Shown: one piece after another, positions 29,691 to 33,329 of the stretch
How positions within the stretch are numbered: the stretch's first letter is position 1
How the letters are laid out: the number at the start of each line of letters is the position of its first letter
NCBI GenBank assembly: GCA_022843745.1
Contig: JALHNB010000005.1
Location: 111,392-175,391, forward strand
DNA length: 64,000 nt
Origin: Anaerolineae bacterium
GTDB lineage: Bacteria > Chloroflexota > Anaerolineae > Aggregatilineales > Phototrophicaceae
Reading direction: 5' to 3'
Made by a program: the position numbers and the translations under genes
The notes under the pieces: generated by a model
Told to the model about the DNA's origin: nothing
The model's database searches: none
The model's input: the letters and a program-made list of their open reading frames with translations, nothing else

Positions 29691-29699
29691 TGCTATAAT
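29691..29699 (+). promoter_or_regulatory. Extended -10 promoter of the cyclase operon
   Basis: TGCTATAAT, an extended -10 element, ends 33 bases before the first cyclase ATG; no clear -35 element, as expected for this type. Confidence 0.65.
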
Positions 29700-29732: not shown

Positions 29733-31490
29733 ATGTTAAATACGAACAACAGCCCGATTGACGCTATTCACGGCATCCGGGCGCTGGTGAAAGAAGTCGA
29801 TCTCGCACTGCGGAAGCAGCAGGAAATTTTACAATTGCGCGGCATGAGCCTGCCACCCGGTACGACTCGTTCGTTGAGCAGCATCATCGAAGACCTGAAT
29901 AAGATTGAATCGCGGCTGGCGGACGAGACGACGGAACTTAGCCAGCTTCGCGCATTGGCGGGAACATCTGATCAACTTGGTTCATCGCTTGATCTCGACA
30001 CGGTGCTGGCTGAGGCGATGGATAATGTTATCAATCTGACCGGGGCTGAACGTGGCTATATTGCTTTGACCAATCCTTTTTCAGATGAATTGGACTTTCG
30101 CGTTGCCCGCGACCCCGATCAGCAGGATAAACAGGGGCGCGTCACCTTCCAGGGCAGCCGCACGATCCTGGGCGAAGTGTTGGAAACTGGAAAAGCGCTG
30201 CTCACTGATAATGCTTACAATGACCCCCGTATGCAGGATAACGCCACCGTAGCACGTCTGGCACTGCGTTCTGTAGTCTGTGTGCCGCTCAAGCTTAAGG
30301 ATCGGGTGATTGGCGCTGTCTATGTTGATAATCGTCTGCGTGCCGGGATTTTTACACAGCGTGAAGCCAATCTTCTGGCGGCTTTTGGCAATCAGGCATC
30401 CATTGCCATCGAAAATGCGCGTCTTTATACGCGCGTCCAGACGAGCATTGCCGCGATCACCGAATTAAAAGAAATGATGGACAGCGTATTTGCTTCCATT
30501 GGCAGCGGCGTGATTACGACCAATGCGGAAGACCTCGTGACAACCTATAATCGTGCCGCCTCGCAAATTTTGTCATATGAAGCGGAACAGGCACTCGGTC
30601 AACGCCTGAAGGCCGTGATGCCCAAGATTAACATTGATGTCGAAACCCATCTGCACAGTGTCCGCCAGCAAAATCAGGCCAGCACTGTCGAAGCCGAACT
30701 GGATAACCCCGGTCATGAGCGCATCGCTTTAAGCATGAAACTCAGCCCTCTGAAGGATGCCGATCAAGGGACGCAGGGTGTCGCGATTGTGTTAGATGAC
30801 CTGACCGAACAGCGCAAGGATGAACGCACCCTGAATGTTATGACCACCTATCTGACACCCGAAATGGTCAAAAACATCCAGCAGATTTCAACGTTGGCGC
30901 TGGGTGGTGAACGGCGTGAGATAACGTGCATCTTCGTGGATGTCCGCCCCATTTCGACCTTCCCGCCCGGTCTCAATCCCAAGCAGCTTATGGAGATGCT
31001 CAATCTTTATCTCACTGTAGCCACCGAATGTATCCTGTCCTCCAACGGAATTATCGACAAATACATGGGGCATGAGGTGATGGGGTTGTTTAATTCGCAG
31101 TTAAACCCACAAAGCAGCCACGCCCAATTTGCCGTCGAATCTGCTTTAAATATGCGCGACTCGTTTCTCAAATTGTATGAACAATTGGGAATTAATCCTG
31201 ATCCGCATTATTATCGTGCAGGTATTCATACAGGTATTGCAACTCTGGGAAATGCTGGCAGCTTGAGCCGACGTGACTTCACCGCGATTGGGGATAGTGT
31301 TAATCTCTCCAAGCGCCTTGAAGAAAATGCGGTTGCCGGCCAGATCATCATCAGCGAAGATGTGGTTGAGCATATGCAGGCCAGCGTTGGTGATGAATTA
31401 TTTAAGAATATCCAGTTTCTGGAACGCGATGCCATTCAAGTCAAGGGACGCCAGCAGCGCACCCGTATTTACGAGGTCTTCCGACAGTAA
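29733..31490 (+). CDS. GAF-PAS-class III nucleotide cyclase homologue lacking one metal Asp
   Basis: 585 residues, soluble: N-terminal coiled coil (1-72), GAF (about 75-232), PAS-like (245-360), cyclase homology domain (about 385-585). The first metal Asp is present as Asp403 in IFVDVR, although the usual GFT after it is missing (PIST). The second metal Asp, in the normal DKYMGDAVM, is His447 (DKYMGHEVM). Asp521, Asn524 and Arg528 (IGDSVNLSKRLE) remain. A class III cyclase normally needs both Asp residues, so on its own this domain should be inactive or weak. It may pair with the downstream paralogue, whose ATG overlaps its TAA by one base. Confidence 0.9.
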   Translation: MLNTNNSPIDAIHGIRALVKEVDLALRKQQEILQLRGMSLPPGTTRSLSSIIEDLNKIESRLADETTELSQLRALAGTSDQLGSSLDLDTVLAEAMDNVINLTGAERGYIALTNPFSDELDFRVARDPDQQDKQGRVTFQGSRTILGEVLETGKALLTDNAYNDPRMQDNATVARLALRSVVCVPLKLKDRVIGAVYVDNRLRAGIFTQREANLLAAFGNQASIAIENARLYTRVQTSIAAITELKEMMDSVFASIGSGVITTNAEDLVTTYNRAASQILSYEAEQALGQRLKAVMPKINIDVETHLHSVRQQNQASTVEAELDNPGHERIALSMKLSPLKDADQGTQGVAIVLDDLTEQRKDERTLNVMTTYLTPEMVKNIQQISTLALGGERREITCIFVDVRPISTFPPGLNPKQLMEMLNLYLTVATECILSSNGIIDKYMGHEVMGLFNSQLNPQSSHAQFAVESALNMRDSFLKLYEQLGINPDPHYYRAGIHTGIATLGNAGSLSRRDFTAIGDSVNLSKRLEENAVAGQIIISEDVVEHMQASVGDELFKNIQFLERDAIQVKGRQQRTRIYEVFRQ

Positions 31491-33265
31491 TGTTTGACGA
31501 TACTTCAAAAATCAACACTGAAAGCTCGACGAATGAGTTGGTGCGGCAGTTGTCGCAGCGCGTCACGGAACTGATTCAGCTTTTGCGGGCGCAGCAAGAG
31601 GTTTTGCTACAGCGCGGTATGAGTTTGCCGCCTGTCGCCAATGAGCGCCTCAAAGAACTCAAGCAGCAGGTTGAAGGCTTTTCAACACTTATGCTTGACC
31701 AGCAGATGACCCTGCGCCATTTGCGGGCTGTGGCCGAGACAACCTCGATTGTCAATTCGTCGTTAGAGCCGGACGAAGTTTTGAAACAGGTTATGGACAC
31801 CGTGATCCGCCTCGCCGGGGCTGAACGCGGTTTCATCATGCTCAAGAATCGCACGACGGGTGAACTCGAATTTACCGTTGCGCGTGGCATTGACCAGGAA
31901 CAGCTTACGCGCGATTCGTTCACCATCAGCAGCACGATTGTCAACAAAGTCGCTGAGTCGGGTGAGCCGGAATTGACGAATAACGCCAGCGATGACCCCC
32001 GTTATAAAAGCAATCAAAGCGTCATCGGTTTTGCCCTGCGCAGCATTATCGCTGTGCCGTTGAAAGTGCGCGGCGATGTGATCGGCGTTGTATATTGCGA
32101 TAATCGCTTTCTGGCAGGAGTTTTTAAACAATCTGACCTGGAACTGCTGGCGGCTTTTGCGACCCAGGCGGGTGTTGCCATCGAAAACGCGCGTTTGTTC
32201 GAATCGGCGCGGGCGCGGCTGGCTGAGGTCAAAGAAACCAGCGATCTCATTTCCAATATTTTTGAATCCATTGCCAGCGGTATTATCACGACAGACCGTG
32301 ACAGTATCATCAACACCTGTAACGCCGCTGCGGGGACAATTATCGGTGCCTATGCCGATGAAGTGGTCGGTAAATCACTCTACGATGTTCTTCCATCCAG
32401 TCTCAACGGCGATTTTCAGGAACGGCTGGAAAAAGTACGCGAAACAGGTTCGCAGGAATTGATTAAAGCCGAGCCAGTGCTGGATAGCCTGGGGGCGCGG
32501 GTCTGGAATTTGATTATCAGCCCGCTGCGCGATTATAACGGCAATACGCAGGGTGTGGCGATTGTGCTGGATGACCTCACCGAGATCAAGCGGCGTGAAG
32601 CACAGTTAGCTGGCGTAAAACCCTATCTGCCCTCGGCGCTGGTCGATAATATCCTCAATATTGATGTTTCCGGCCAGGAACGTTTCATCAGCACCCTGTC
32701 TGCGGATGTGCGCGGCTTTACGTCATTCAGCGAACGTCTGGAACCGGAAGAGTTGATGGAGATCATCAATAAATATCTGAGCCTTTCCAGCGATGCGATC
32801 AATCTTTACGAGGGTGTGGTCGATAAATATATGGGCGATGCGGTGGTTGGGCTTTTCAACACCCAGTTAAACCCGCAGGAAGATCATGCGGTCCGCGCTG
32901 TCCGTGCCGCGATGAGTATGCGCTATGATCTGTTCGCGCTGCACGAAATTTTGCCGGAAGACCAGCGCTTATTTTATGGCATCGGTATCCATTCCGGTCC
33001 AGCGGTACTGGGGAATGTCGGCAGCAAACAGCGTCAGGAGTTCGCCGCAATTGGCGATGCGATGGATTTGAGCAAACTTTTGCAGGAAAATGCGAAAGGC
33101 GGCGAAATCATCATCAGCGAGGCCACCTACGAACTCGTGAGCAATCAGTTCGAATGTGAACCCTACACACCGACCAAACTCAAGGGTCGCACAGATTTGA
33201 CGTTGGCCTACAAGGTGCTGAAACGCAAAAAGCTTACCGGAGCGATTTCGCTGGATGATTTTTAG
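31490..33265 (+). CDS. GAF-PAS-class III adenylate/guanylate cyclase
   Basis: 591 residues with the same layout as the preceding paralogue: coiled coil (1-80), GAF (85-237), PAS (250-365), cyclase (about 395-591). Both metal Asp residues are present: Asp406 in SADVRGFTSF and Asp450 in DKYMGDAVV. Lys446 and the GDAMDLSK segment suggest ATP rather than GTP as substrate. The usual Asn of GDxVN is Asp here (GDAMDLSKLL) and the Arg of the RLE segment is absent, so transition-state residues may have to come from the partner. Translational coupling (TAATG) supports a heterodimer with the upstream protein. The stop codon is part of a repeated copy of the convergent gene's tail. Confidence 0.9.
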   Translation: MFDDTSKINTESSTNELVRQLSQRVTELIQLLRAQQEVLLQRGMSLPPVANERLKELKQQVEGFSTLMLDQQMTLRHLRAVAETTSIVNSSLEPDEVLKQVMDTVIRLAGAERGFIMLKNRTTGELEFTVARGIDQEQLTRDSFTISSTIVNKVAESGEPELTNNASDDPRYKSNQSVIGFALRSIIAVPLKVRGDVIGVVYCDNRFLAGVFKQSDLELLAAFATQAGVAIENARLFESARARLAEVKETSDLISNIFESIASGIITTDRDSIINTCNAAAGTIIGAYADEVVGKSLYDVLPSSLNGDFQERLEKVRETGSQELIKAEPVLDSLGARVWNLIISPLRDYNGNTQGVAIVLDDLTEIKRREAQLAGVKPYLPSALVDNILNIDVSGQERFISTLSADVRGFTSFSERLEPEELMEIINKYLSLSSDAINLYEGVVDKYMGDAVVGLFNTQLNPQEDHAVRAVRAAMSMRYDLFALHEILPEDQRLFYGIGIHSGPAVLGNVGSKQRQEFAAIGDAMDLSKLLQENAKGGEIIISEATYELVSNQFECEPYTPTKLKGRTDLTLAYKVLKRKKLTGAISLDDF

Positions 33266-33329
33266 AGCGTATTCAGGAGCGCGTTGCAATCTGCTTCTAG
33301 AGCGTATTCAGGAGCGCGTTGCAATCTGC
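33263..33329. repeat. Exact 32-bp direct repeat at the end of two convergent genes
   Basis: TAGAGCGTATTCAGGAGCGC and the next 12 bases occur at 33263-33294 and again, identically, at 33298-33329 (period 35). The second copy is the 3' end of the GntR gene; the first supplies the stop codon of the cyclase gene. Confidence 0.97.

Follow-up and report, generated by a model that had tools for sequence, protein, structure and literature searches.

A split pair of GAF-PAS-cyclase genes in Aggregatilineales predicted to encode a heterodimeric class III nucleotide cyclase

Introduction

In the mammalian transmembrane adenylyl cyclases (tmACs), the C1 domain supplies the metal ligands and the C2 domain supplies the base-binding and transition-state residues, producing one active site and one pseudo-site (PMC4174876; PMC8815786). 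Soluble guanylyl cyclase (sGC) carries the metal Asp residues on its alpha subunit and the catalytic Arg on its beta subunit, and its homodimers are inactive (PMC3591389). The heterodimeric rhodopsin cyclases of chytrid fungi (NeoR/RGC) are obligate heterodimers of separately encoded sensor-cyclases (PMC8815786). Bacterial class III adenylyl cyclases were described in a 2022 review as homodimerising monomers, with a fused dimer being unknown in bacteria, and the asymmetry was described as the product of duplication and fusion in early eukaryotes (PMC9552081). Here we analyze two adjacent genes, A and B, within a 64,000-nucleotide stretch of DNA from an Anaerolineae bacterium of the order Aggregatilineales (assembly GCA_022843745.1, contig JALHNB010000005.1, positions 111,392 to 175,391; hereafter the window). 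Judging from their sequences, A and B very probably make up an obligate heterodimer with class III nucleotide cyclase activity, most likely that of an adenylyl cyclase, which arose by tandem duplication and opposite losses.

The division of labor predicted for the pair is that of the tmACs, with B being C1-like and A being C2-like. However, the tmACs are single fused membrane polypeptides in which C1 comes first, whereas A and B are predicted to be two soluble proteins that are encoded by adjacent genes with the C2-like gene first, carry GAF-PAS sensors and seem to derive from an independent duplication. Like sGC, the pair comprises two separate homologous subunits with a sensor, PAS domain, coiled coil and cyclase domain, but sGC is eukaryotic, senses nitric oxide through haem and uses GTP, whereas the pair is bacterial, has GAF sensors and contains a Thr at the base position that suggests ATP as its substrate. 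The NeoR/RGC enzymes differ from it in that RGC1/2 retain all catalytic residues and their heterodimerisation is attributed to regions outside the cyclase domain. The homodimeric bacterial class IIIb cyclases CyaC, CyaB and Cya2 are among the closest solved folds and sequences to A and B; unlike A and B, the single-copy GAF-PAS-cyclases of Anaerolineae have the full residue set in one chain, and hence two equal sites.

Results

A and B carry complementary parts of a class III active site

Both genes encode a GAF, a PAS and a Guanylate_cyc domain, each of which scores above the Pfam cut-off, and they meet at a shared base (stop codon TAA at 31488-31490, start codon ATG at 31490-31492).

29733..31490 (+): gene A, 585-aa GAF-PAS-class III cyclase; the base and transition-state subunit, resembling C2 and sGC beta
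29988..30413 (+): gene A GAF domain, aa 86-227 (Pfam GAF_2, E 2.3e-17)
30492..30815 (+): gene A PAS domain, aa 254-361 (Pfam PAS_4, E 1.1e-9)
30915..31460 (+): gene A cyclase domain, aa 395-576 (Pfam Guanylate_cyc, E 1.3e-12; AlphaFold2 pLDDT ~90 over most of the domain; Foldseek matches CyaC, Cya2, CyaB)
31488..31492 (+): TAATG, in which stop and start codons overlap and probably couple translation
31490..33265 (+): gene B, 591-aa GAF-PAS-class III cyclase; the metal subunit, resembling C1 and sGC alpha
31769..32182 (+): gene B GAF domain, aa 94-231 (Pfam GAF, E 1.3e-19)
32261..32587 (+): gene B PAS domain, aa 258-366 (Pfam PAS_4, E 3.6e-15)
32687..33199 (+): gene B cyclase domain, aa 400-570 (Pfam Guanylate_cyc, E 1.6e-15; AlphaFold2; Foldseek matches CyaB, Cya2, CyaC)

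AlphaFold2 models of the single chains show the expected fold, with a mean predicted local distance difference test (pLDDT) score of 80.5 for A and 82.4 for B, and low predicted template modeling scores that leave the arrangement of the domains uncertain. Foldseek searches with these models returned the class III cyclases CyaC, CyaB and Cya2 as the nearest solved folds, so that domain matches and fold both place A and B in the class III nucleotide cyclase superfamily.

Six catalytic positions were taken from an alignment. Listed in the order first metal, substrate Lys, second metal, base-specifying residue, transition-state Asn and transition-state Arg, they are occupied by Asp403, Lys443, His447, Thr517, Asn524 and Arg528 in A, and by Asp406, Lys446, Asp450, Ala519, Asp526 and Leu530 in B. 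Their locations in the window, and the residues found in orthologues, are as follows.

30939..30941 (+): A Asp403, first metal position; orthologues have D or E and less often N/S/T/Y/F
31059..31061 (+): A Lys443, substrate Lys; kept in 86/86
31071..31073 (+): A His447 in place of the second metal Asp; orthologues have N/T/S/H/G/Q/E and in no case D
31281..31283 (+): A Thr517, base-specifying position; T in 81, S in 6
31302..31304 (+): A Asn524, transition-state Asn; kept in 87/87
31314..31316 (+): A Arg528, transition-state Arg; kept in 87/87
32705..32707 (+): B Asp406, first metal Asp; kept in 87/87
32837..32839 (+): B Asp450, second metal Asp; kept in 86/86
33044..33046 (+): B Ala519 in place of the base-specifying Thr; just 45/85 orthologues have T
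33065..33067 (+): B Asp526 in place of the transition-state Asn; just 14/85 orthologues have N
33077..33079 (+): B Leu530 in place of the transition-state Arg; R in 0/85 (L, Y, K, F, I, Q, S and W seen)

An earlier note on this DNA had claimed that the first cyclase replaces its second metal Asp with His447 and keeps the Asn/Arg pair, that the second keeps Asp406 and Asp450 and lacks the expected Asn and Arg, and that the stop and start codons overlap by one base; the alignment and the junction bear this out, and its residues and numbering were right. The complementarity extends beyond the six residues: the Gly-Phe of the metal loop is gone from A (VDVRPIS, as compared to ADVRGFT in B), this Gly-Phe and a Glu of the loop being present only in B, and the glycine of a VKG motif (Gly572) occurs only in A. 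Three features went unmentioned in the note, namely this loss of the Gly-Phe in A, the Ala519 that replaces the base-pocket Thr in B, and the presence of the substrate Lys in both proteins.

The composite site is conserved and its reciprocal is not

We read 87 adjacent pairs, 83 of which have all twelve residues readable. The composite site, formed by the two Asp residues of B and the Lys, Thr/Ser, Asn and Arg of A, is intact in 83/83 complete pairs, as compared to 0/83 for the reciprocal site, and no reversed or mixed pattern was seen among the pairs read. No orthologue of A that was read has the second metal Asp and none of B has the Arg, such that a complete class III site is available only from A and B together and from neither chain alone, with the metal residues on one subunit and the Asn/Arg pair on the other, as in C1/C2 and sGC. 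Because the positions split alike across the 87 pairs, the complementarity is not a matter of chance. Single-copy homologues from a seventh family and from other parts of the class, in contrast, contain the full D-K-D-T/S-N-R set in 39 of 40 cases, the one exception having Ser in place of Asn.

Trees of the A proteins and of the B proteins, with 80 of each, give numbers of inferred residue changes that divide along the same line. In A, the retained Lys, Asn and Arg positions show 0 changes and the Thr position shows 3 (T/S), as compared to 14 and 18 at the two metal positions and a column median of 16. In B, the metal Asp positions show 0 changes and the Lys position 1, while the lost Thr, Asn and Arg positions show 19, 32 and 15, respectively (column median 13). 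By these counts each protein is evidently under constraint at the residues that it contributes to the composite site and free to vary at the others, as expected for a heterodimer with a single working site.

The segments that precede the cyclase domains are also matched. In all 33 A and all 33 B proteins compared, 59 aa separate the GAF and PAS domains, and among these 66 proteins the spacing from the PAS domain to the metal position is near-identical between A and B (48 aa in most); this agreement supports the proposal that the two chains heterodimerise. Gene A precedes gene B, adjacent to it on one strand, in 87/87 pairs, and in 47 of the 87 the two genes could overlap by 4 nt or 1 nt. Stoichiometric synthesis of the two proteins from overlapping genes, which the earlier note suggested, is plausible.

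Distribution and origin of the pair

The tandem pair is found in six families of the order (f1, f3, f4, f6, f7 and f8), comprising the family of the window and five others, and in these families nearly every genome has both genes; these family counts rest on draft genomes. Neither gene was found in five f1 genomes (genera g2, g12 and g20). The sole f5 genome has one A and a partial B on separate contigs, and a single gene without a pair is present in all 9 genomes of family f2, as well as at the 35 loci that were read elsewhere in the class. Named matches to the pair are metagenome-assembled genomes (MAGs) of Anaerolineae / Aggregatilineales, and the pair is also present (locus L078) in a relative assembled as a single contig of 5,631,885 bp (G027). 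The Chloroflexota pair also occurs (L201) in a record that bears the cyanobacterial name 'Pleurocapsa minor GSE-CHR-MK-17-07R' and appears to be a mislabelled MAG.

In a tree of 133 proteins, constructed like our other trees by quick methods, A (support 99), B (98) and A plus B (100) each form one group, and the single-copy proteins of f2 and the class fall outside, with single-copy GAF-PAS-cyclases of Anaerolineae as the direct outgroup. A tree of the cyclase domains only recovers A with support of 100 and B with 94. The topology fits a history in which A and B are sister clades that arose by one tandem duplication of a homodimeric GAF-PAS-cyclase and then underwent reciprocal loss; f2 would have branched off before the duplication if the root lies among the single-copy proteins of the class. 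In this tree, which contains no eukaryotic sequences, A and B are closest to single-copy Anaerolineae cyclases of the same architecture. This position argues for an independent duplication, and descent from the duplication that produced tmAC or sGC seems unlikely.

The sensors may have a partly separate history. In one f6 locus (L049) and three f4 loci (L038, L048 and L051), the GAF domains of A and B from the same genome are on average 72-80% identical, as compared to ~39% for the cyclase halves, possibly because gene conversion has acted locally, on the sensors alone, in f4 and f6. The catalytic asymmetry appears to have outlasted this homogenisation.

Other cyclases and cyclic-nucleotide-binding proteins

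A and B contain the only Guanylate_cyc domains found in 16 genomes (14 of genus g18 and two of g14), and one further g18 genome has a third, sub-threshold match. All 16 genomes nevertheless encode 1-4 cyclic-nucleotide-binding domains each. Each of the 14 g18 genomes has one such domain in a frame of ~756-792 aa, and the one frame that was opened proved to encode a sulfate-permease-like transporter that combines SulP, STAS and cyclic-nucleotide-binding domains (L249:1434-3686 (-) in G017). In G017 this fusion is the only cyclic-nucleotide-binding match and the pair supplies the only class III cyclases. A similar fusion is present in the window genome (L254:1555-3759 (-)), and the transporter is a possible candidate for the effector of the pair. 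The window genome, a 7.96 Mb draft in 117 contigs, encodes 16 cyclic-nucleotide-binding domains and has five Guanylate_cyc matches besides A and B; the sites of four of these were read, and all four have complete residue sets.

Single polypeptides with two cyclase domains were also observed in relatives (L256:949-2577 (+), L257:333-3554 (-) and L258:1030-4188 (+)). In these three, domain 1 keeps the metal Asp residues and not the Asn/Arg, and domain 2 keeps the Asn/Arg and not the metal Asp residues; L257 and L258 also contain an AAA_16 domain. A further polypeptide (L259, a 1135-aa frame on the minus strand) is similar and less clear. From their residues, L256-L258 appear to be fused C1-C2 cyclases of Chloroflexota that resemble soluble adenylyl cyclase, in contrast to the review that calls fused bacterial dimers unknown (PMC9552081), and they show that the split pair is not the only form of asymmetric class III cyclase in these bacteria.

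Surroundings of the pair

In the window the pair is neighbored by lspA, an open reading frame (ORF) resembling a lipoprotein gene and a GntR gene. These neighbors were not found beside the pair in relatives, except for the GntR gene at 5 loci, so no pathway can be read from the context. One putative promoter feature was read from the sequence upstream of gene A.

29691..29699 (+): extended -10-like element TGCTATAAT, 33 nt upstream of the gene A start

A matching -35 element was not found for it, and a consensus promoter scan did not report the element. A 35-nt tandem duplication (97%) at 33260-33329 of the window spans the stop codon of gene B and reaches the 3' end of the convergent GntR gene.

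Discussion

The earlier note proposed, from a single genome, that a heterodimer of A and B could form one complete site. This proposal is supported by the conservation of the composite site alone and by the confinement of constraint to one half of it in each protein; a single duplication with reciprocal loss, the adjacency and usual overlap of the genes, and the 16 genomes in which no other class III domain was found back it further. In the mechanism that we propose, A and B would be made from overlapping genes and would pair in parallel via their matched GAF-PAS-coiled-coil stalks. The dimer would contain one working site, built from the metals held by B and the base and transition-state residues of A, together with one dead pseudo-site, and the signals of two different sensor stacks would converge on the single site. 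The product is probably cyclic AMP (cAMP), because the Lys/Thr pair is class IIIb-like, and it would act on cyclic-nucleotide-binding proteins.

Several points weigh against the heterodimeric cyclase. The 83 complete pairs are kin by descent and are not 83 independent events, although the repeated changes at the lost positions are independent. B retains the Lys and often the Thr, so its decay is partial, and the call on purine specificity hangs on one Thr/Ser position. Isolated sGC catalytic domains form inactive homodimers too (PMC3591389), and thus homodimers of A or B may coexist with the heterodimer. A tree of the sensors only does not separate A and B cleanly; as evidence against a single duplication it was set aside in view of the cyclase-domain tree and the high GAF identity within pairs.

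Other explanations of the pair were considered. Because each chain is degenerate on its own and the window genome has other, complete cyclases, the heterodimer might be a pseudo-cyclase that serves as a nucleotide-binding sensor or scaffold without catalysis. We regard this as improbable, as the retained positions of the composite site are near-invariant and include the transition-state Asn and Arg, which serve turnover and not binding, and as the 16 genomes without another class III domain still keep cyclic-nucleotide-binding proteins. The further Guanylate_cyc matches of the window genome could also mean that A and B each partner and regulate another, complete class III cyclase instead of each other. 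This model was rejected as very unlikely, since no third class III domain was found in those 16 genomes; in addition, A and B lie adjacent on one strand in every pair and have stalks that match in length.

The two remaining explanations have a negligible probability. If A and B were decaying duplicates with neutral losses and accidental complementarity, the lost positions would be expected to drift at about the rate of an average column, as they do, but the retained positions are almost invariant in 80 pairs, and the frames and adjacency are maintained across families with no reversed or mixed pair; conservation already contradicts this reading. Membership in the Pycsar anti-phage cyclases is suggested by PADLOC, whose PycC models match both cyclase domains (E ~2e-19). 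It was rejected, as the matches span the generic class III domain only, the neighbors (lspA, the lipoprotein-like ORF and GntR) include no adjacent PycTM/PycTIR effector, and the pair is near-universal in six families, not sporadic.

No description of a bacterial split-site cyclase pair was found in the open-licence literature, a search that left most subscription journals outside and does not prove priority. We consider it reasonably likely that, as its sequences suggest, the heterodimeric cyclase formed by A and B is the first naturally split, obligate heterodimeric class III cyclase to be recognised in bacteria. It would be an unfused, independently evolved counterpart of C1/C2 and sGC that spans the order, with no other class III cyclase found in most genomes of one genus, and it would place two different sensor stacks on one site and leave a vacant pseudo-site free to bind a regulator. 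The same division of labor would thus have been reached in bacteria through a tandem duplication whose copies stayed unfused, and a neighboring family offers single-copy relatives for comparison. The pair makes it possible to test which advantage a two-site homodimer acquires on turning into a one-site heterodimer; candidates are two separate inputs and an allosteric pseudo-site.
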